IMG/VR virus record: IMGVR_UViG_3300020603_000012
Location: 1 to 64,000 of that record
Source: a virus
Length of the DNA: 64,000 nt
Direction: 5' to 3' (one strand)
Translations under genes and position numbers: made by a program
The notes under the pieces: model-generated
Told to the model about the DNA's origin: nothing
The model's input: the letters and a program-made list of their open reading frames with translations, nothing else
Databases searched by the model: none
Shown: one piece after another, positions 40,407 through 63,046 of the stretch
How the letters are laid out: every line of letters begins with the position of its first letter
How positions within the stretch are numbered: the stretch's first letter is position 1

Positions 40407-42848
40407 TTAAATTACTTGAAATTCTATTGTGTAATTTGTATTTGCCCCTAATTGCTGCACTCGCATAGTATAAGAGCCTTGATTATAGGGAGCAGAAGCG
40501 GTAAGAATTTCTTGATTTATGTTACCGGGTCCAAAGTGTTGTTGTGCTAGCATTTGATCTGGATTATCTCCTGCTGTCCATTGAGACCCTGATTGAATTC
40601 CCAACCATGCTACATTATCTACTGAATTGTAATTCCTAAGTATAATTTTATTTAATATCTTATTATTCCCTACATTAAAGGTAAAATAATCACTATTTCC
40701 AGCTACAGAAGCAACAACTAAGCCATTACCAGTGTTTAAAGTTACAGGTGTAGGAACAAGTGCTATGTTTGAAAAAGGACCATTAATATTTTCTGCCCAT
40801 ATTGTATAACTAGGAGGCTCGGGGGAAGGTGATGGAGGGCAAGCACTTAAGAATCTTAAGTCTGTTGAGCTATTTAAATAAAATTGTGTTGAATCTCTAT
40901 ATGGCACCCTACTGAAAAATATATTATTTGTACTTAGTGGTATTGTTGATGTATTTACATAGCAATGTGATAGATACTGTGCAAATAATTCAGTTGCTGT
41001 TGTTGTTGCTATAGATGTAGCTGGAAATTTGCTAACAGTTAGATTTGTTGTAGGTGGTCGAGAAGGGTTATTAATACTAGGGTCTCCAAGACCATAATTG
41101 CCTGCTAGACCGGAGCTGGAGAGAGTGTTGACACTAGCACACTGCATTAGAAAATTTTTAGCTTGTTGCGGTGTAAAATGAGGAAATCTTTCTAATATTG
41201 TGCATAAAATACCTGCAATATTGGGTCCTGACATTGAGGTCCCGCTTAGCTTGCTCAAGAAATAACCTGAATAACCTGGGTATGTTACACCGCTTATGAA
41301 AGCACTTTGAATATATGAGCCTGGAGCATATATACTTACACCACTACCATACTGAGAGTATTCAGCTCTTGCAGCTACAGCGTCTATTAAAGAAGAAATA
41401 GTTCTACCTCCGATAGCCCCTACTGTTATAACTGGATTATCTTCATGTGATGTCCAATTAGAGATAGGATAAGCGGGGGAATCTTCTCTACTGTTACACG
41501 TACCCGAATTCATTCTATCGTCAATCGGGGTTACAATTAATATGTTTCCATTGCCCGCAGAATGAACAAAATGAATGCCATTATCGGTTAATTGTTTTAC
41601 TTTTTGATCTATAACATCAACAGTACCACATGAATATCCGTAACTATTATTCATTACAGAAGGTCGTGAAGATAACCCTGGAACAGTCCTTTTATATTTG
41701 TGATACCGTTCAATTAAATCAAGCATTAAGTATAAACCTTCAGTAGAATTACCATACCCGTTAGATGTTGAAAAATTTATTCTCATTGAAAAAATTTGTG
41801 CATCTATTGCCCAGCCGCAACTAGAGCCTGCAACGGTTCCTGTGCAGTGTGTCCCGTGGCCGTTGGTATCTTGATAAAATAAGCTTCTATCTGATTGACA
41901 ATTATAATCTGTTCTTGCAATTACCCCACCCCCGACCCCGGATCCGGGGAGGCCACCCCAATAATACATAGTATCTTGCTGTCCAGAAGATGCTAGTGGG
42001 TTGTTGTTTGGCCAAACCGTTAATGAAACTGTACCAGTAGAAGCACCATTATTAGAAACATAATCACTATTAAAAGGAACATAACTAGTAGATCCTATAA
42101 AAAATGGATGCGCGCTAGTTGTATTTACTAAATTAAAATCATAAACACCGGTTCTAAAACTAACAGGAAACCCACCGGCTGGGTGTCTAGCTGTAGGAAC
42201 ACCTACTCTATCTTTCACAACATAAACTGTATCTTTTTCAACACCATTAATAAAATATGAATTTTGTCCAGGATTACCTGGTGAAGCGCTAACAGTCACA
42301 GTAATATTTCTATCTGCTGTAACAGGGGCAAATAGTGACCAATTAAGAAACTGTAGTCTTGTTTGACCGTTTTGATCTAACCATTCAGGATGACCTGGTA
42401 CTATTCCGGAATCAAGAATTATCGCATCAACACCACTACCTGTATAATGATAGGTAAACTCCATATCAAATGGGGGTAGCGCAGATAGAGAATTACACCT
42501 TCCAAACCCCCATTGTTCAGGGGTAGTATTACTACTAGAATTAAACGCCTGCCCAACAGTAGTTAATTGTCTTTTTTTACCAGCTTGACTATTAGGTTCA
42601 AATTGAACGTCTAACCTCTCTTCAACAATTACTACCCCAGGGCATTTTTTTAAAGCATTTGCTTCTTCCTCTGTTAAAAAGGCTTTAATAGTTGTAGATG
42701 AAGAAGACATGTAATCACTCACTTCAACACACCGAGAAAGGGAAGGGGTTTCAGTTCCTTCAGGAATAACTCCAGGTGTATATAATTGTTCAACAATACT
42801 GTCTATTTGGTCTTCTGTTGAAGCGGTTATAAAAAATTCTTTTTTCAT
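40407..42848 (-). CDS. subtilisin-like serine protease (S8), tail-associated
   Basis: An 813-residue protease. A prodomain-like N-terminus (1-85, including EEEANALKKCPGVVIVEERL) precedes the catalytic domain: Asp146 in ILDSGI, His331 in NGHGTHCTG, Asn433 in SAGNG, Ser538 in SGTSMSGP. About 170 residues are inserted between Asp and His, with beta-rich segments of unknown role. The C-terminal 200 residues form two beta-type domains. No signal peptide is visible. It is the last gene of the fibre operon, starting four bases into the end of the Ig-like gene. It probably acts on virion or host-surface proteins. Confidence 0.85.
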   Translation of the reverse strand: MKKEFFITASTEDQIDSIVEQLYTPGVIPEGTETPSLSRCVEVSDYMSSSSTTIKAFLTEEEANALKKCPGVVIVEERLDVQFEPNSQAGKKRQLTTVGQAFNSSSNTTPEQWGFGRCNSLSALPPFDMEFTYHYTGSGVDAIILDSGIVPGHPEWLDQNGQTRLQFLNWSLFAPVTADRNITVTVSASPGNPGQNSYFINGVEKDTVYVVKDRVGVPTARHPAGGFPVSFRTGVYDFNLVNTTSAHPFFIGSTSYVPFNSDYVSNNGASTGTVSLTVWPNNNPLASSGQQDTMYYWGGLPGSGVGGGVIARTDYNCQSDRSLFYQDTNGHGTHCTGTVAGSSCGWAIDAQIFSMRINFSTSNGYGNSTEGLYLMLDLIERYHKYKRTVPGLSSRPSVMNNSYGYSCGTVDVIDQKVKQLTDNGIHFVHSAGNGNILIVTPIDDRMNSGTCNSREDSPAYPISNWTSHEDNPVITVGAIGGRTISSLIDAVAARAEYSQYGSGVSIYAPGSYIQSAFISGVTYPGYSGYFLSKLSGTSMSGPNIAGILCTILERFPHFTPQQAKNFLMQCASVNTLSSSGLAGNYGLGDPSINNPSRPPTTNLTVSKFPATSIATTTATELFAQYLSHCYVNTSTIPLSTNNIFFSRVPYRDSTQFYLNSSTDLRFLSACPPSPSPEPPSYTIWAENINGPFSNIALVPTPVTLNTGNGLVVASVAGNSDYFTFNVGNNKILNKIILRNYNSVDNVAWLGIQSGSQWTAGDNPDQMLAQQHFGPGNINQEILTASAPYNQGSYTMRVQQLGANTNYTIEFQVI

Positions 42849-50263: not shown

Positions 50264-50664
50264 TGGAGCTGCTGGGATTTGAACCCAGGTCTTGAAAAGA
50301 TTCACTATAAGCCACTACAAGTGTATTCTGGTTGAGATTCATAATATATTAAACCAGACAAAACATATTAAATATAATGATTTTATACGCTTGATAGATA
50401 ACCATTAAAACACATCAAGTCGAAAGCTAGTAACACGCCTTGCTCTACAAGCTTTTATCTACAGCAAGACGATCGAACTAAACTAGTTCGAGTTCGGCTT
50501 CTGCGTCTTCGAAGCCATACTGTGCAAGAACTGCATCAGCTTCTTCTAGACTCATGGCCATGTCGAAGTTATCTTCGGCAATTGATTTGTTTGCTATTTT
50601 TAATTGGAATGCCCCAATACTTGCAACCTATACCTACACCATTCAATCGATTCCATTCAGCCCC
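50264..50664 (-). ncRNA. ssrA: tmRNA (ssrA), one-piece, phage-encoded
   Basis: A 401-nt minus-strand RNA. The 5' end GGGGCTGAATGGAATCGATT (from 50664) matches the conserved tmRNA start, and the 3' end carries a T-arm CTGGG-TTCAAAT-CCCAG followed by CAGCTCC and A. GGGGCTG pairs with CAGCTCC to give the seven-base acceptor stem with the characteristic G.U third pair. CCA is not encoded and must be added. The resume codon GCA is preceded by AAAAATA, as in known tmRNAs. It would rescue stalled ribosomes. No permutation is seen. Confidence 0.88.
50478..50594 (-). other. tmRNA tag reading frame, 38 residues
   Basis: From the GCA resume codon (50594-50592) the frame reads ANKSIAEDNF..., continues through an acidic middle with GFEDAEAE, and ends ELELV before TAG (50480-50478). 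Normal tags are mostly 8-20 residues and end in LAA or similar hydrophobic Ala; this one is far longer and lacks that end. The other two frames give less plausible peptides. Confidence 0.75.
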
Positions 50665-50683: not shown

Positions 50684-50711
50684 ATTATAATCTATTTATT
50701 CTAAAATTCCA
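50684..50711 (-). promoter_or_regulatory. probable promoter of tmRNA
   Basis: TGGAAT (50706-50711), 16-nt spacer, TATAAT (50684-50689). Transcription would begin about 13 nt upstream of the mature 5' end, leaving a short piece for RNase P. It overlaps the 3' end of the upstream gene. Confidence 0.5.
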
Positions 50712-50920
50712 ATACTTCTGAAAGGAAGCGGTTTTCCATTTTTATCATTAACAGTTATACCGTCAATATGGCCAGCCATATACGAGCCATGGCCTTCCCA
50801 TTTACCACAATACCAAATAGGCTTTACTTCTTTACCTTCTAGAAGTCTTCTTCTGTTAAAGGAAGTCTTATGACCAGGTGTTCTGCTTCCTGCTTGGGGA
50901 TTTGTTTTTGAGGCTGCCAT
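50696..50920 (-). CDS. hypothetical small basic protein
   Basis: A 74-residue protein starting MAASKTNPQAGSRTPGHKTS with many Lys/Arg/Gly residues, then IWYCGKWEGHGSYMAGHIDG, which may be a small beta domain. No family recognised. Located between tmRNA and a minus-strand terminator, so it probably has its own start of transcription; the upstream AT-rich sequence gives no clear -35. Confidence 0.5.
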   Translation of the reverse strand: MAASKTNPQAGSRTPGHKTSFNRRRLLEGKEVKPIWYCGKWEGHGSYMAGHIDGITVNDKNGKPLPFRSIGILE

Positions 50921-56137: not shown

Positions 56138-56378
56138 TATCTTCTCCTGCTGCTGTCTGTATATCTAATTTGTTACTGTAAACCTTTTCTAAGACGGCTA
56201 TAGACATAATACCTATAATTATAAACGCTGCAATAATTGAAACAGCTTTGCAAATTGTTCTTCTGACATTTTGCCTCTTATGGTATGCTTTATAAGAAGA
56301 AAGAAAATTATTAAAATAGTCAGAGGAAGGCGAATTAAGATCAGAAGCCCTCTTAATAAGTCTCGAAAGCTCATTCAT
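56124..56378 (-). CDS. single-pass membrane protein
   Basis: An 84-residue protein starting MNELSRLIKRASDLN, with GAGGG just upstream and a four-base overlap with the amylase stop, which supports this start over an ATG at 56399. A basic juxtamembrane segment (KAYHKRQNVRRTICK) and one transmembrane helix (VSIIAAFIIIGIMSIAVL) precede a short acidic tail. Function unknown; it belongs to the amylase transcript. Confidence 0.6.
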   Translation of the reverse strand: MNELSRLIKRASDLNSPSSDYFNNFLSSYKAYHKRQNVRRTICKAVSIIAAFIIIGIMSIAVLEKVYSNKLDIQTAAGEDSESK

Positions 56379-59300
56379 TGGGGCCCTCTTGTTGCACAAC
56401 TAAAATTAATAGTCGCAGTATTTTTAACTGCTGCAGCGTTTAATGAGGCTACATCTGACTCCATAGAATCTTCTACCATAATTATTTTTATTGCAGCAGT
56501 TCCAAATGCTGGTATGTTCTTATACATAAATCTCCATTCTTTTTCATATCTAGAATTTACATCTACTTTAGGAACTTGTGCCCATGCTAAATTACCTTTA
56601 GACCCATCAGGGTTAACAAGAACACCATTTCCATTGTCCTCTCCGGTTGCCGCATCATCGTTAAGAGCGTTAGCATCTCTTATATTATAGAATACTTCCT
56701 TTACAGTGCTATCTGTTTTTATAACAAATTCGTAGTTTTGACTAGTTAATGTTTCTCCCGGTCTAGGATAAAGAATTTGACCTGAAGGGGGTTTAGAATC
56801 ATAATAAAAAACTTGAGTAAAAGTATTATAGTAAGGTGTAAAGCCTGGCGCCTTAAGGAATGCTCGAGCTCTTAATACATGATAGCCTTCTTCCAAGCCC
56901 ACTCTTTTACTTGCAAAATCATTATGTACATAGTTTTCAACTGTTGTTGCATTAAAATTAGTTACAGAAAATTGTGATGCCATTTTGCTTTTTATACTGA
57001 CCATATTACCGTTAGAAGGAAAAACACTTAATGTATCTAAATAAGTGCCGCCAATTTTATAACGCAATTGACCCGTTGGCCAAGGTATTTGTACAGACCA
57101 CCAATACGTAGGTCTTCCATTACCATCATTCGGACCAGTTCCGTCTCTTATAGCTTCTAGTACTCTTGTTGAAGCTATTGCAGCTACGCCTCCATAGCCC
57201 TCAGGAAAAGAAATACCATCAGTTGTGTAATATACAAAAAGTTTAGCATTATTATAATACTCACCAGTTTTGATTCTAATAGTGGCACTTGAAGCATTAG
57301 CTACAAACTGACGTCTACCATCTGCAATTACGTTTGGATCATGATAGATGTAATCGGAAGGTGTAAAGAATGCGTTAGGACCATTTCCTAAATTAAAATT
57401 AACTCTTCTAAGCCCCTTTATAGCTATATAGGTTTCAGCTCCTTGCGAACCTACTATATTACGATTAACGTTAGCTGCAGCAAACTTATCTCTTACTCGG
57501 TAATCAAATTTCATTTGTTCATAACCTAAAAACATATCATCAGTGCCTGGGGGATAGTCCCTCTTGATGTCCGTCATCGAACCCAGGCCCATTTGAGAGT
57601 TAACGTCAACCCCTCCATCTAGTTTTAATAATACATTTTCTGCTGAGCCATCGAGTTGTACAATAAAGCTTAAATTTTGACCAGATCTTACAATAGGAAT
57701 AAATGTTTCATATGTATAATCAGAAGTGTTTGTATCATATAAGCCATAAGGGTTAAACGCTGCATCTCCATTCGTTCCATCTTTTCTTTTAACTTTTATG
57801 TAAGGAACATTAGTACCGTTTTCTCTTATGTTTATAGCATTTAAACCTGTGTTTAAAGTAGGTCTTTCAGGAGTACGATAAGAGAACATATAATAACTAC
57901 TAGGCGGGACTATGACATTTCTTAATTCGTTTGCATACTTATAAAACCCTACTTGACCAGATCCGTTGGGCCCGGTAGCATATTGAAACAGATAAGCATC
58001 AGAAGGAAATGAAGAAGTAATAGGTGCAGACTTTCCATTCCATCTATTTCCGTTTATCATTGCGATCATAGTAACTCCGGTTGCATCAGAAGATGCACCA
58101 TATCTTCTATCTATTCTTTCATAAGCAACATAATCGTTATTGGACCATATTCCCTTTTGACTGCCTCTTGCAAAATTATTATGTATTTTAACTAAATTAG
58201 GAATCCTAGGGTCACTCCATTGTCCAAGAAAAGCTGAATTTGCTATACGGGGAAATTCACCTCCTGAATTTGTTAGTACCCCTGCATGGTAATTGCCATC
58301 TGTATATATAAGAGGAAGGCCTGCTCTAGTAAAATAGAATGCGTGTTGAATATGGCGGTCGGTAGACCAACCATTATCGTGAGATTGTGAATGCATAACA
58401 GCTACATCTGAACCAAAGCCTCCTGAGCCTTGACCATCAAAGCCAGATAAATTATTCCCTATTCTGTTATCTAGATTACTTTTAAGAATATTATCTACTA
58501 GTCTCATTCCTGCATTAATATAATCACCATAAGGAGGTGGTTCACCGAGGTGCTCACCAAACATCATAGCATCATCTCTACCTAGATCAGTATTAAAAAC
58601 ACTATCTCGGTGATTGATATCTGCAAAGCCTCTAGATATATTAAACTGTCTTTGTGCTTGACCTACATAACCATAATCAGAAAAATCTTTATCAGTTCCA
58701 TAAGAAGCACCAAAGAAATCATATGGCACGTGCTTTACAGCGTCTAATCTTAATCCATCACATTTAGTTCTATCCATAAACCAACGTACCGCTCTATTAA
58801 GATATTCTTCTACGTACTCTGAATAATATGCTTCATTAGCAGCAAGATACTCAACTGTTAATCCATTCTCATAACCAAACCCTACATAATTACCGTTTGC
58901 GTCATAACAATAAAATTCTGGGTTATTAGGATGTCTTAAGAACTTTACCTTTTGTGTCCACCATCCCTCGTTTGGTCCATGATTCTTATTCCAGATACCC
59001 GTCTCTGTAGCAATATCTATTAAATCAGATAATCCTCTGTTTTGTACTTCCCATACATTACCCCAATCACTTGTGTTATACCATTTGCGGTAAGTACCAT
59101 CAGGCATTAACTTAAGATGAAAGTCTTCAGGTCTCATTCCTGGATACAAATCAAGAGGTGTATCAGCTGTATACCCAGGTGTATCAAACCCGCGGTGATT
59201 CATTATATTATCAAAATAAACTCTGATACCAAAACGGTGTGCGGTTTCAATTAACATCATGAGCTCAGCTTCAGTACCATACCTTGTATAAGTAGAACCT

Positions 59301-59533
59301 CTTTGGTCTTTAGAACCTAAATCAAATGGATCAAATAAATCATATCCTACTGAAAATGAACTACCAGCTTTTGCAGGGGGAGGAAGCCATAGAGAATCAT
59401 AACCTACTTCTGCAAGTTCAGGAAGCTTGGCAGTAATTTCTGCCCAACTAGTATTAAAATACTGAAGCATAGCCTCAGCTTGAACGTTAACTGAAATGAA
59501 AAGAGAAGCGAAAAATGCAATTGCCCTTTTCAT
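56375..59533 (-). CDS. exported GH13 alpha-amylase family enzyme
   Basis: A 1052-residue protein with an N-terminal signal peptide (FFASLFISVNVQA, cleavage near 19). The GH13 regions are intact: DNIMNH (108-113), GLRLDAVKH with nucleophile Asp264, MFGEHLG with acid Glu327, and SQSHDN with Asp386. Residues beyond about 560 form several beta-type domains. It should act on alpha-glucan outside the cytoplasm. A late-type box AATAAATA lies 5 nt before the ATG. Such an enzyme on a phage, next to PEP-CTERM genes, is unusual. Confidence 0.88.
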   Translation of the reverse strand: MKRAIAFFASLFISVNVQAEAMLQYFNTSWAEITAKLPELAEVGYDSLWLPPPAKAGSSFSVGYDLFDPFDLGSKDQRGSTYTRYGTEAELMMLIETAHRFGIRVYFDNIMNHRGFDTPGYTADTPLDLYPGMRPEDFHLKLMPDGTYRKWYNTSDWGNVWEVQNRGLSDLIDIATETGIWNKNHGPNEGWWTQKVKFLRHPNNPEFYCYDANGNYVGFGYENGLTVEYLAANEAYYSEYVEEYLNRAVRWFMDRTKCDGLRLDAVKHVPYDFFGASYGTDKDFSDYGYVGQAQRQFNISRGFADINHRDSVFNTDLGRDDAMMFGEHLGEPPPYGDYINAGMRLVDNILKSNLDNRIGNNLSGFDGQGSGGFGSDVAVMHSQSHDNGWSTDRHIQHAFYFTRAGLPLIYTDGNYHAGVLTNSGGEFPRIANSAFLGQWSDPRIPNLVKIHNNFARGSQKGIWSNNDYVAYERIDRRYGASSDATGVTMIAMINGNRWNGKSAPITSSFPSDAYLFQYATGPNGSGQVGFYKYANELRNVIVPPSSYYMFSYRTPERPTLNTGLNAINIRENGTNVPYIKVKRKDGTNGDAAFNPYGLYDTNTSDYTYETFIPIVRSGQNLSFIVQLDGSAENVLLKLDGGVDVNSQMGLGSMTDIKRDYPPGTDDMFLGYEQMKFDYRVRDKFAAANVNRNIVGSQGAETYIAIKGLRRVNFNLGNGPNAFFTPSDYIYHDPNVIADGRRQFVANASSATIRIKTGEYYNNAKLFVYYTTDGISFPEGYGGVAAIASTRVLEAIRDGTGPNDGNGRPTYWWSVQIPWPTGQLRYKIGGTYLDTLSVFPSNGNMVSIKSKMASQFSVTNFNATTVENYVHNDFASKRVGLEEGYHVLRARAFLKAPGFTPYYNTFTQVFYYDSKPPSGQILYPRPGETLTSQNYEFVIKTDSTVKEVFYNIRDANALNDDAATGEDNGNGVLVNPDGSKGNLAWAQVPKVDVNSRYEKEWRFMYKNIPAFGTAAIKIIMVEDSMESDVASLNAAAVKNTATINFSCATRGPQ

Positions 59534-59538
59534 ATTAA

Positions 59539-59546
59539 TATTTATT
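59539..59546 (-). promoter_or_regulatory. late-promoter-like box AATAAATA for amylase
   Basis: 5 nt before ATG at 59533, overlapping the stop of the pseudopilin-like gene. Confidence 0.55.
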
Positions 59547-60102
59547 TGGCAAACAATTTCTTATCTTTATATGGACAAAAACTATATACATCATCAAAAG
59601 GTGTCTTGTTAGGATCGTCCTGCTTTTGATTTTTACCTAAGCTTACTACTATGAAATCTTTAGGTACATTTTCTTGAAAGTTTTTACCATAATATTCTAC
59701 TTTACCAGAACCGTCTATATCCCATTTTAATGCATATTGATTCTTCCACGGGTCAAGTAAGGTACCATCTTCTTTTATACCTTCACCATAATAAGGTCTT
59801 AAGATTTTACATACATCTTTACTATCATCTATTCTAGTAGGAGGACCATACCATGCGTAATATTCATGGTCAAAAGGATACCCCTTTCTAGGCGCAGGCC
59901 ATGCAATCAAGCCATTTTCAGATTTATAAAGCTGTACAGCATGATACAACCCTCTCATTTCTACATTCTGTACTTTAGATATTTTTGTTTTTTCTTGTAT
60001 ATGCTGGTAAGCAGGAAATGACAAGCTAACTAGTAAAAGAATGATGCTGACGGCTACAAGCATCTCTATAATAGTAAATGCTGTAGCCGTCAGCTTCTTC
60101 AT
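59542..60102 (-). CDS. type II/IV pseudopilin-like protein
   Basis: A 186-residue protein with a prepilin leader: MKKLTATA then FTIIEMLVAVSIILLLVSLS, with the conserved Glu at +5 and a hydrophobic helix. The residue before the cut is Ala rather than the usual Gly. The rest (residues 45-186) resembles GspG-like pseudopilins (LLDPWKNQYAL). It would need a host prepilin peptidase. Lies two bases after the adjacent PEP-CTERM gene. Confidence 0.8.
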   Translation of the reverse strand: MKKLTATAFTIIEMLVAVSIILLLVSLSFPAYQHIQEKTKISKVQNVEMRGLYHAVQLYKSENGLIAWPAPRKGYPFDHEYYAWYGPPTRIDDSKDVCKILRPYYGEGIKEDGTLLDPWKNQYALKWDIDGSGKVEYYGKNFQENVPKDFIVVSLGKNQKQDDPNKTPFDDVYSFCPYKDKKLFAK

Positions 60103-60104
60103 TC

Positions 60105-60758
60105 TTACTTTCTCTTTTTAAGAAGTAGTAGTGCGCTAACACCTAACAATGATAGGATTGAAGGTTCGGGTACAGCAGTAAATTGTGTTAAGTAATTTAC
60201 TCCCCCGTTGCTTGCATAGTTTTCAAAACTACCACTGCTTCCACCGTTAGACCATGTAAAGTCAGCCTTTGCATACATTTCTATTGTGTATGTTTTAGGT
60301 GCTTGAATGGTACCAGCGGTTACGTTCTGTAATAAGTTAACAGAAGAATTGGCTGCCCAATATTTGTTAACGTTACCATCAGTCCATGAGTTACTAAACG
60401 GAACGTTATATGAACTGAATGCACCTTTATCAGCTGCACCAGTTTCATACACCCTCCAGTATAAAGTAACTGCATTAGCAGAATCTGTAGAACTTTGCCA
60501 GGTTTTAGCAGTTGCACTAGCTAATTGTAGTAACCCACCTTGATTCATGTTAATAGTACCAAGGCTAGCAGGTAAAGAATTAGCAGGGTTTGGACCATGG
60601 GTATCACCAAGCAAATTATAGAACGTAGTTGCTTGATTAATCACATCCAAACTAGAAGCATCTACACTAAACCCAACACCTACTGCATACATAGTATTGG
60701 CATAAGATGCTGATGCTAACCCTAAACTTATTACAATAGCTAGAATTAATTTATTCAT
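60105..60758 (-). CDS. PEP-CTERM exported protein
   Basis: A 217-residue protein: signal peptide (LILAIVISLGLASASYA), a beta-rich body, and the sorting tail VPEPSILSLLGVSALLLLKK ending RK. PEP-CTERM tails are recognised and cut by exosortase in the host inner membrane. A strong AAAGGAGGG lies upstream of the ATG. Its start overlaps the previous gene by four bases. Body function unknown. Confidence 0.85.
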   Translation of the reverse strand: MNKLILAIVISLGLASASYANTMYAVGVGFSVDASSLDVINQATTFYNLLGDTHGPNPANSLPASLGTINMNQGGLLQLASATAKTWQSSTDSANAVTLYWRVYETGAADKGAFSSYNVPFSNSWTDGNVNKYWAANSSVNLLQNVTAGTIQAPKTYTIEMYAKADFTWSNGGSSGSFENYASNGGVNYLTQFTAVPEPSILSLLGVSALLLLKKRK

Positions 60759-62323
60759 ACATTACCCTCCTTTCTTTTGAGCGTTCTTATTGCAAGTACC
60801 CCTAGTCCTCCAAGCAGCATTAAGCTACCAGCAGAGGGTTCAGGAATACCTGAAACTTCAATGTTATTAACAAACAGACCATAGTTTGGTTGATCTGCTG
60901 TAGTGGTCTGTATGTCACCTGCATAGAAGTGAATAGTAGTAATATAATCCGGCACATTTACATTAGTCACAAATAACACCTCTGGATTTCCGTATAAATA
61001 AGCACTTACTTCAACAAGTGTAGGGGTTAATTGCTCTACCATGTAAGTTAATGCTTGTTGATAGCCATTGGCTAACACCTGAGTATTAGTTAATCCAGTA
61101 CCTGCAAAGGTAATAGGATCTGACCATACATTCTGGAATCTAAACACTGCAGTGTTTCCAGACATGAATTCAACACCTCGGTTACCTCCATTCCAAAGAT
61201 AGTTTGCATCTACTGATAGAGTTTGACCTGCTATAAGGCCACCACCATTGAGTACAAACCAACCGTTTGAGTATTGATTATAAGCCGTATTACCAGGTAC
61301 AAAATTAAATGCACTTGCTCCAATACTAGTTCTTCCTCCTTGAGAGGAATTACTAATCTGGGTTATAGCAGATGTGTCATTTTGGAAGTACCAAGTACCT
61401 ACACTTGTACCAGCACCTTCTATCCATGTTGCAGTGGTATAGCTGCTGGCATCCTCTATACCTAATACAGCTGCATGTGTTGTATTTAGACTAAAGATAG
61501 CGAGCAATGCAGCAAGCAAGCTAACTTTAGTTTTGTTTTTTGTTCTCATAAAACCTAATAATGTTGCGCCTATTACAAGCAATAACCAAGTATCTGGTTC
61601 AGGAATAATACCTACATCAGAGAGCGAATCACCCACAGATAGATAATCAATATGCACAACAGGTGCTGCAGTTGCAGAACCTTGTCTTAAGTTAATAGCA
61701 GATATAAAAGAAGCTGGCTCTGAACCTGTAGTAGATAGCCAATTAACTGTTCCTAGTTCTGCTACAAGTAATGATCTGTTTGTATCATTAGGGTTTATGT
61801 ACAAGCTAAATGTATCATTAAGAGTGCCAGCTACAAAATCCCATGCCATAACTATAGTGTATTCAGTGTTAAAATCTAATAATGTAGTTCCCCAGGTCAT
61901 TGCAGATCCTGTGCCTGATGCAGATTGTAATCCCAGTTGAAATCCAGCACCTGAGCTTCTAGCAGCCAATCTTTGATAAAAATTGGAAGAAGTACCTGCA
62001 GGGTCAGATAGGTTTAAGAAGTAATCACCATTAACAAAGGCAGATGCAATTTTAAGATCTACTCTTGTATATAAAGTATTACCAGACGTCTTTACTACTT
62101 GTGAAGTTAGTGCTTTCCAAACATCTTGACCTGTTGTATTAATAATTGCTTTACCATCTTGGTACTGAATAGGATTATTAGAAGCAGTGGATGTTTGAGT
62201 CCATCCATTCTGCCCTACTAGATTTCCATTTACATATCCTGTTGAAAAGTCATCAATTAGATATGTTGCTGCATTGAGATTTATAGCTACCAATGCAAGT
62301 AGTGTTGTTATTAGTTTTTTCAT
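60755..62323 (-). CDS. tandem double PEP-CTERM protein
   Basis: A 522-residue reading frame holding two complete modules. Module one: signal (1-18), lectin-like beta body, PEP at 241-243, hydrophobic anchor to 258 and basic tail MRTKNKTK (259-266). Module two begins at once with another signal-like segment (VSLLAALLAIFSLNTTHA, 267-284), a second beta body and PEP at 494-496 with anchor and RTLKRKEGNV. Met259 (ATG at 61549) could start module two separately, with AGG four bases upstream. The bodies differ, so this is not a simple duplication. Confidence 0.85.
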   Translation of the reverse strand: MKKLITTLLALVAINLNAATYLIDDFSTGYVNGNLVGQNGWTQTSTASNNPIQYQDGKAIINTTGQDVWKALTSQVVKTSGNTLYTRVDLKIASAFVNGDYFLNLSDPAGTSSNFYQRLAARSSGAGFQLGLQSASGTGSAMTWGTTLLDFNTEYTIVMAWDFVAGTLNDTFSLYINPNDTNRSLLVAELGTVNWLSTTGSEPASFISAINLRQGSATAAPVVHIDYLSVGDSLSDVGIIPEPDTWLLLVIGATLLGFMRTKNKTKVSLLAALLAIFSLNTTHAAVLGIEDASSYTTATWIEGAGTSVGTWYFQNDTSAITQISNSSQGGRTSIGASAFNFVPGNTAYNQYSNGWFVLNGGGLIAGQTLSVDANYLWNGGNRGVEFMSGNTAVFRFQNVWSDPITFAGTGLTNTQVLANGYQQALTYMVEQLTPTLVEVSAYLYGNPEVLFVTNVNVPDYITTIHFYAGDIQTTTADQPNYGLFVNNIEVSGIPEPSAGSLMLLGGLGVLAIRTLKRKEGNV

Positions 62324-62913
62324 AATCTTTTTCTTAATGCTAGTAATCCTAGTAATGTTAAATGTAAGGTTGAAGGTTCAGGAACTACTTCAATTATTTC
62401 ATTACCTCCGTTATAAGAAAATGTACCTACCAATGCTGTAGTATTAGAAGAGAAGACAAACGATTCCATATTAGGTGTGCTATCAAACAGAGGGGCGCGC
62501 CATAAAGTATCAGTTAAAATAGCTTTATCGTAAGAACTGTTATAAGGTGCAGCTGTAAAATTAACTAGGTCTGCATCATATATAGCTAATGCAAGTTGTG
62601 TATTTACCGCAACATCAGTATTATCTATTTTGCTATAATTGATTTGCATCTCAAGAAAATCTACTCCCGTATCAACAAAACCTGTACCGTTAGGAAGAGG
62701 GGAGAAAATACCATTACTATAAGTACCCCATAACGCTGACATGTAACGGGTATTAACTGTATTATTATCTACAAGAACAGAAAATAAATCGTCATACAAA
62801 ACTATAGAAGAAACAGCTTTGGATTCGGACACCATAAACCAACCAATAAAAAAGCCGCACATTGTGCGGCTTAGCATCTTTAAAGCGTTATAAGCGCTCT
62901 TGTATCCTAGCAT
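62320..62913 (-). CDS. PEP-CTERM exported protein, first gene of operon
   Basis: A 197-residue protein from ATG 62913 (a longer frame from 62970 starts before the predicted transcript). GGGAG precedes the ATG. A signal region (MLSRTMCGFFIGWFMVSESK, A) is followed by a beta-rich body and the tail VPEPSTLHLTLLGLLALRKR. The codons for the signal region contain a perfect terminator hairpin. Overlaps the double PEP-CTERM gene by four bases. Confidence 0.8.
   Translation of the reverse strand: MLGYKSAYNALKMLSRTMCGFFIGWFMVSESKAVSSIVLYDDLFSVLVDNNTVNTRYMSALWGTYSNGIFSPLPNGTGFVDTGVDFLEMQINYSKIDNTDVAVNTQLALAIYDADLVNFTAAPYNSSYDKAILTDTLWRAPLFDSTPNMESFVFSSNTTALVGTFSYNGGNEIIEVVPEPSTLHLTLLGLLALRKRL
62847..62872 (-). 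terminator. rho-independent terminator inside the 5' coding region
   Basis: AAGCCGCAC/GTGCGGCTT with a 3-nt loop, followed on the minus strand by TTTTTT. It lies within codons of the signal peptide of the first PEP-CTERM gene, suggesting attenuation of the operon. Confidence 0.75.
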
Positions 62914-62938
62914 GTGAGGTTCTCCCTCATATAATGTA

Positions 62939-62966
62939 CTTATACCTGCTGTTGTATTGTTTGCAA
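62939..62966 (-). promoter_or_regulatory. promoter of PEP-CTERM operon
   Basis: TTGCAA (62961-62966), 16-nt spacer, TATAAG (62939-62944). The transcript would start near 62932, giving a short leader with GGGAG before ATG 62913, so this operon is not leaderless. Confidence 0.55.
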
Positions 62967-63046
62967 GCATATTAAGTTAGACAGATCAACTTTAAAAACA
63001 TTAAATTTATTTTTGTGACAAAAAAAATTATTAGGGTTTCTTATTG

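Follow-up and report, generated by a model that had tools for sequence, protein, structure and literature searches.

A one-piece tmRNA gene in a tailed-phage genome

The window analyzed here is a 64,000-nucleotide stretch of the 70,646-base IMG/VR virus record IMGVR_UViG_3300020603_000012, and the DnaB-like helicase, DNA polymerase, SbcC/SbcD-like proteins, and endolysin that it encodes fit a tailed phage. Only one RNA family scores above threshold in the window when searched with cmscan: the tmRNA model RF00023 matches positions 50664-50261 on the minus strand at 87.1 bits (E 2e-32; gathering score 47), which confirms the phage tmRNA recognized in the initial annotation. The match is linear and spans model positions 1-374, identifying a one-piece tmRNA and ruling out a two-piece, circularly permuted gene. 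The mature body of this ssrA gene occupies 50264..50664 (minus strand, as are all features of the gene described below), as delimited by RF00023, by the alignment of 19 distinct sequences, and by covariation.

The same tag, which the initial annotation had suggested looking for in related phages, was recovered from 21 IMG/VR contigs and always ends in ELV. These were found with a degenerate pattern for NFDMAM (tag residues 4-9), which hit 112 stretches in the viral_contigs collection, 21 of them this tag within a tmRNA and the other 91, judged by eye, unrelated frames. Occurrence among related phages is patchy: RF00023 scored above its cut-off in 8 of 50 contigs carrying a related polymerase or neighbor gene, six with an ELELV tag and two with other tags. 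Eleven further loci run against the model, seven with the ELELV tag and four with the LAA-type tag discussed below, all passed. Two copies match that of the window exactly and another is truncated at a contig end; with these three left out, 19 distinct tmRNAs, that of the window included, were compared. Most tmRNA-bearing contigs are fragments; a 229,717-base contig (G001) carries an identical tmRNA and a polymerase 100% identical in protein to that of the window.

INPHARED (50,697 records) was searched by blastn with four queries (the tmRNA region, the tag DNA, a homologue, and the cut tmRNA of contig G022), and the best matches had query coverages of 9%, 23%, 12%, and 16%, with E values of 0.1-10 (for the tmRNA-region query, among the matches listed, 40 of 75). 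In one of them, the alignment takes in the final 50 bases of an annotated phage tmRNA. Megablast gave no match in INPHARED for the 24-kb end of the window; this collection may omit records close to the window's own. A non-exhaustive search of bacterial genomes with one exact degenerate pattern, for EDNFDMAM, gave a single match, in an unrelated open frame.

The acceptor stem is formed by GGGGCTG (50658..50664) and CAGCTCC (50265..50271), followed by a discriminator A at 50264; CCA is encoded in none of the 19 tmRNAs. All seven pairs are standard and the G3.U70 pair is kept in 19/19, through four different stem sequences, and the T-arm CTGGG-TTCAAAT-CCCAG (50272..50288; helix 16) shows two-sided changes in three of its five pairs, so that both elements stand as initially described. 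A hairpin lies at the PK1 position (50603..50618; helix 5; two-sided changes in 2/5 pairs), the second helix of PK1 not being found in the alignment of 19 tmRNAs. A stop-codon stem-loop at the P5 position (50473..50491; helix 11; two-sided changes in 2/5 pairs) overlaps the last tag codons with its 5' arm. Downstream lie both helices of each of the pseudoknots PK2 (50423..50471; helices 12 and 13), PK3 (50375..50419; helix 14 and a second helix), and PK4 (50327..50370; helix 15 and a second helix). Their second helices pair and covary across the 19 sequences: the PK2 loop helix is paired in 114/114 cells, with two-sided changes in 5/6 pairs, and those of PK3 and PK4, each aligned in two subtypes, are paired in 45/45 and 90/90 cells and in 43/54 and 50/50 cells, respectively. 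The gene thus resembles standard one-piece tmRNAs of RF00023 in its G3.U70 acceptor stem, its T-arm, a GCN resume codon with A at -4, a tag stop codon set in a stem-loop, and three downstream pseudoknots.

Covariation is strong, and the RNA is a maintained tmRNA. The RNAalifold structure contains 90 pairs, 33 of them with two-sided changes; once the PK2 loop helix is added, 99.1% of 1824 cells in the resulting 96-pair structure are standard pairs, compared with 92.6% in shuffles, and 38 of the 96 pairs show two-sided changes, compared with 21.9 in shuffles and 5-10 when the pairing partner is slid, a shift that lowers pairing to 36-45%. Pairing percentage, two-sided-change count, and covariation score were each matched by none of 500 shuffles; the weakest measure, the number of further pair types, was reached in 8/500. 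The predicted pairs within the tag frame (helices 6-10) show no two-sided changes, as expected where coding rules. Upstream, a tentative promoter-like site, TTGGAA-17-TATAAT (50684..50712, minus strand), matches at 10 of 12 positions; the region holds five sites of that quality, compared with a mean of 4.0 in shuffles, and a hexamer matching TATAAT at five or six of six positions lies within 60 nt upstream of 10 of the 19 tmRNAs.

The 33-residue tag and its ELELV end

The initial annotation had placed the resume site at AAAAATA-GCA, giving a tag of about 38 residues. The Rfam alignment instead assigns the resume codon to GCC at tmRNA position 86 (50579-50577), fifteen bases, or five codons, after the GCA at position 71. 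Reading from GCC yields exactly 33 residues closed by TAA or TAG in all 19 distinct tmRNAs, whereas reading from the conserved GCA is in frame in 12 and out of frame in seven, where it gives 3, 4, or 19 residues. Positions -4, -3, and -1 before GCC are invariant in the 19 tmRNAs, with A at -4, and ARAGORN calls the 33-residue GCC reading in three of them (L091, L101, and L120). Together, these observations establish a tag of 33 residues, and the 38-residue tag from GCA is ruled out because its frame is lost in 7/19. The covariance fit that had been proposed as a check has moved the resume codon, but not to a short tag ending in LAA: the reading frame at 50481..50579 encodes AEDNFDMAMSLEEADAVLAQYGFEDAEAELELV, ends in ELELV as first noticed, and is followed by TAG at 50478..50480 (TAG or TAA in the homologues).

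ARAGORN also starts later in one relative (L209), where it calls the eight-residue tag AEAKLELV. By analogy, the true tag of the window could be the eight-residue AEAELELV, resumed further downstream, a reading that is highly improbable given that the Rfam alignment and the three other ARAGORN calls agree on GCC and that purifying selection extends over codons 10-33; the odd end persists in either case.

The frame evolves as a protein. Its pN/pS is 0.20 over the 33 codons, compared with 1.16 and 1.73 in the other two frames. Since codons 4-9 were fixed by the search pattern, they were excluded from the main selection test, which covers codons 10-33 and gives a pN/pS of 0.26, a value reached by none of 300 column-order shuffles (lowest 0.29). 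The mean identity of the tag DNA, 87.5% with the search-fixed codons 4-9 still included, compares with 75.9% in the rest of the tmRNA. Restricted to the last five codons, the selection signal is weaker (pN/pS 0.36), and, as these codons overlap the stop-codon stem, RNA structure may account for part of the conservation of the end. All of the last four codons vary synonymously (CTC/CTT, GAA/GAG, CTA/TTA, and GTT/GTA), and the encoded end is LELV in 17 of 18 distinct tag DNAs and FELV in the other. Across the 19 tmRNAs, tags end in ELELV, EFELV, TLELV, or KLELV, and none ends in Ala-Ala. A hidden Ala-Ala end, reached by stop-codon readthrough or a frame change near the end, was also considered and rejected, as the 19 sequences contain neither a conserved peptide nor a downstream Ala-Ala there.

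ARAGORN makes no call in 15 of the 19 tmRNAs, that of the window included, and reports no gene when run on the window itself. The silent genes thus depart from the usual pattern that ARAGORN recognizes, which would suit a tmRNA in decay whose odd end is the product of drift. Such decay is very hard to reconcile with the compensatory changes seen in the majority of helices that lie outside the tag, the purifying selection on the frame, and the retention of both stop codon and end, and we regard it as the least probable reading; because the tag evolves as a protein, its ELELV end is one that has been maintained. The signals of covariation and of coding-type selection are each strong and exceed chance. 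Surveys that rely on ARAGORN can accordingly miss genes of this kind.

Comparison with known tmRNAs and long-tag relatives

The phage tag differs from a standard tmRNA tag in length, 33 residues compared with about 10, and in its end, ELELV rather than Ala-Ala. In a database of 97,179 sequences, more tags are reported to have 10 residues than any other length (PMC11915505). As a yardstick, RF00023 matched above cut-off in 37 of 40 genomes of Acidobacteria, a phylum that was taken from an unrelated Acidobacteria record and may not be the host's; among the best 30 loci, which were analyzed further, ARAGORN called 29, every tag being 8-10 residues long with an AA end, and one extra overlapping permuted-type call ending in SAG (L301) was dropped as spurious.

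Phage-encoded tmRNAs have been described in mycobacteriophages, Bacillus phage G, the methylophage Melnitz, and huge phages (PMC4131195, PMC9004378, PMC7162821). These likewise represent complete tmRNA genes within a phage genome. The Melnitz tmRNA is reported to be two-piece and permuted, unlike the one-piece gene described here, and its authors suggest that it tags host proteins for degradation; some huge phages additionally encode SmpB, whereas none was found in the 25 phage contigs searched here. Among the titles and abstract beginnings searched, mostly from outside the subscription literature, there was no report of phage tmRNA tags without Ala-Ala ends.

A second group of long-tag genes emerged from a pattern combining the tmRNA 5' half with AED/E-N, which hit 65 stretches: 17 with the ELELV tag, 10 unrelated frames, and 38 other contigs. 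The latter (39 loci, as G022 occurs twice) contain tmRNA-like genes with acidic tags beginning AEDN and 32-35 residues long, start and length being our own reading; these loci (L228-L274) include L229:156-254, L253:6746-6847, and L234:7073-7174. Examples of their tags are AEDNTSDLLAEAEYIFNNADEFLAGVEDYALAA and AEDNTSDLLAEAEYIFNNADEFL...LAA, and by tag end the 39 loci divide into 35 with LAA, two with LFA, one with MAA, and one with YAA. RF00023 was run on four loci of this type, all of which passed, and the G022 copy cut by a contig end scored 26.4 bits, below cut-off. ARAGORN called four of seven such loci, one from AEDN and three from a later start at EAEYI, with the same ends. LAA-type and ELELV tags are alike in length, AEDN start, and acidity, but the LAA-type tags end in Ala-Ala (two in LFA).

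A polymerase 39-60% identical to that of the window is encoded in 5 of 32 LAA-type contigs searched, and small genes near the tmRNA (families F5, F7, and F17) are common to ELELV and LAA-type phages. A quick tree built from 82 polymerases spreads the ELELV label over three places among LAA-type phages, which requires three changes. We interpret this distribution as the result of tmRNA alleles being exchanged at one locus, a suggestion that stays tentative because branches are long and the labels cluster weakly (as few changes occurred in 41/500 shuffles for ELELV and 26/500 for LAA). In a profile comparison of the two kinds of long tag, only the first five residues, AEDNF, align, at a probability of 2.4%, so descent of one tag body from the other is not claimed; a gapped MAFFT alignment of both kinds was not relied on. 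Two further relatives have a 27-residue tag ending in ALA, also called by ARAGORN, and a 24-residue tag ending in FAA, not called. In the phage tmRNAs L087 and L088, the tags start at a glycine codon: GKNKVSELFAKVADMFQATPKQELALA, also called by ARAGORN, and, by hand, GNIVNYIKNFFKSAAPVEALAFAA.

Proposed role, host factors, and neighboring genes

tmRNA tags are generally treated as degradation signals ending in Ala-Ala. For the ELELV tag, our first choice, to which we give an even chance, is that ribosome rescue dependent on host SmpB has been uncoupled from Ala-Ala-dependent degradation by ClpXP. The phage tmRNA would work in trans-translation with the host's SmpB, alanyl-tRNA synthetase, and CCA-adding enzyme, and nascent chains on stalled ribosomes would receive (Ala)-AEDNFDMAMSLEEADAVLAQYGFEDAEAELELV. 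Because this tag ends in Leu-Val after an acidic stretch, and not in Ala-Ala, the chains that carry it should for the most part be spared the Ala-Ala-dependent recognition that is usual for ClpXP. In this way the phage would recycle ribosomes, compete with host tmRNA, and separate rescue from destruction through Ala-Ala and ClpXP, with the conserved 33-residue acidic module acting through another partner. No SmpB gene was found in 25 phage contigs, many of them fragments, so a host SmpB is expected to serve, and no ClpP gene was found in 26 contigs; with neither encoded in the phage sequences searched, host proteins would decide the outcome. The tmRNA is presumed to be produced and charged and to rely on host SmpB, its tagged products to resist ClpXP, and the acidic module to bind a partner.

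Work on model systems bears on this choice. With E. coli ClpXP, changing either terminal Ala is reported to raise KM, and loss of Ala-Ala is expected to weaken recognition (PMC7652416). In H. pylori, where rescue is essential, cells are reported to be viable with tag mutants ending in Asp-Asp (PMC2584231); these engineered ssrA-DD mutants likewise keep rescue while lacking the Ala-Ala signal, but are laboratory-made, whereas the 33-residue tag is natural and conserved and its sequence is new. Conversely, E. coli ClpXP aided by the adaptor SspB is reported still to degrade a tag ending in AANDENY, without Ala-Ala, although with a higher KM; for AANDENYAANDENY, in which an adaptor site is present, KM is 1.41 uM with SspB compared with 0.47 for the wild type (PMC8512704). 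By analogy, ClpXP would be expected to handle a tag with an ELELV end poorly, except where an adaptor recognizes it. It is on these ClpXP, H. pylori, and SspB data that rescue without Ala-Ala-dependent degradation is preferred and a different degron is taken as the main rival.

Under that rival, the tag would still be a degron, with Ala-Ala dispensable, read by a host protease or adaptor through the acidic helix or the Leu-Val end. In Mycoplasma, for instance, it is not ClpXP but another protease that recognizes the tags. The ClpX specificity of the host may differ from that of E. coli, and LELV, being a hydrophobic C-terminus, might be recognized by further proteases. Purifying selection along the tag, body and end alike, would fit a degron, as would the Ala-Ala ends of the long acidic tags in related phages, where length accompanies the usual degron, and the adaptor-assisted degradation of some tags lacking Ala-Ala noted above. 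However, none of the 26 contigs encodes ClpP, no candidate protease or adaptor was identified, and neither the four tag peptides searched against Pfam nor the window's tag searched against PDB gave a match; we consider a different degron possible but rather unlikely.

Another alternative is that the tag serves as an address or binding module, directing rescued chains to a phage structure or allowing a phage protein to bind them. The tag is a long, conserved, acidic peptide with 11 Asp/Glu and no Lys/Arg, for which AlphaFold2 predicts one helix at residues 11-20. The helix model is, however, of middling confidence (mean pLDDT 69.7), and among the 1688 stop-to-stop frames of at least 40 aa in the 229,717-bp relative, only the tag itself matches, the next best hit having an E value of 2.5, which leaves such a module doubtful. 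Protection, targeting, or service as another degron would each be conceivable as an alternative role of the tag, and the roles first proposed (stabilizing or targeting rescued proteins, recruiting another factor, or protecting phage proteins) are all compatible with the data.

Returning to rescue without Ala-Ala-dependent degradation, a broader and less probable version, possible though below an even chance, is that this phage family has turned trans-translation into its own tagging pathway, in which ribosomes would be freed and the 33-residue acidic module would shield chains from Ala-Ala-dependent proteolysis and hand them to a phage or host partner, the allele being exchanged among phages. 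A natural, conserved tag without Ala-Ala would signify that rescue and disposal are separated in nature and not just in mutants, and the question of why phages carry tmRNA becomes directly testable.

Neighboring genes offer some hints of the host. PEP-CTERM sorting-motif proteins are encoded in 5 of 35 contigs, two of them near-identical. In the window, a gene cluster of secreted-type proteins that carry PEP-CTERM motifs occupies 59542-62970 (minus strand) and 56375-59533 and is also present in G001; the frame at 60755-62323 contains two such motifs, that at 62320-62970 scores just above cut-off, and that at 60105-60758 scores below it. Also encoded in this cluster are an alpha-amylase-domain protein and an N-terminus with a weak, below-cut-off resemblance to pseudopilins, and PEP-CTERM frames recur in three further contigs (G015, G055, and G040). 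Such a cluster is unusual for a phage and may point to an exosortase-bearing host; bacteria of this kind include Verrucomicrobiota. A cyanophage was considered and set aside, as no Photo_RC gene was found in 24 contigs.

Other genes of the window include an 813-aa subtilase (Peptidase_S8) protein at 40407-42848 (minus strand), two genes downstream of the 2048-aa frame that follows the tmRNA, and a small protein without a Pfam match at 50696-50920 (minus strand), just upstream of the tmRNA. Of the 19 ELELV loci, 13 encode a relative of this small protein no more than 3 kb from the tmRNA, compared with 0 of the 39 LAA-type loci, the flanks of some of the latter being short. In two relatives, a tRNA-Met gene directly precedes the tmRNA at a distance of 11-12 bases (L101:4454-4943 and L209:7591-8083), and, judging by sequence, a tRNA probably precedes the tmRNA in five more loci.
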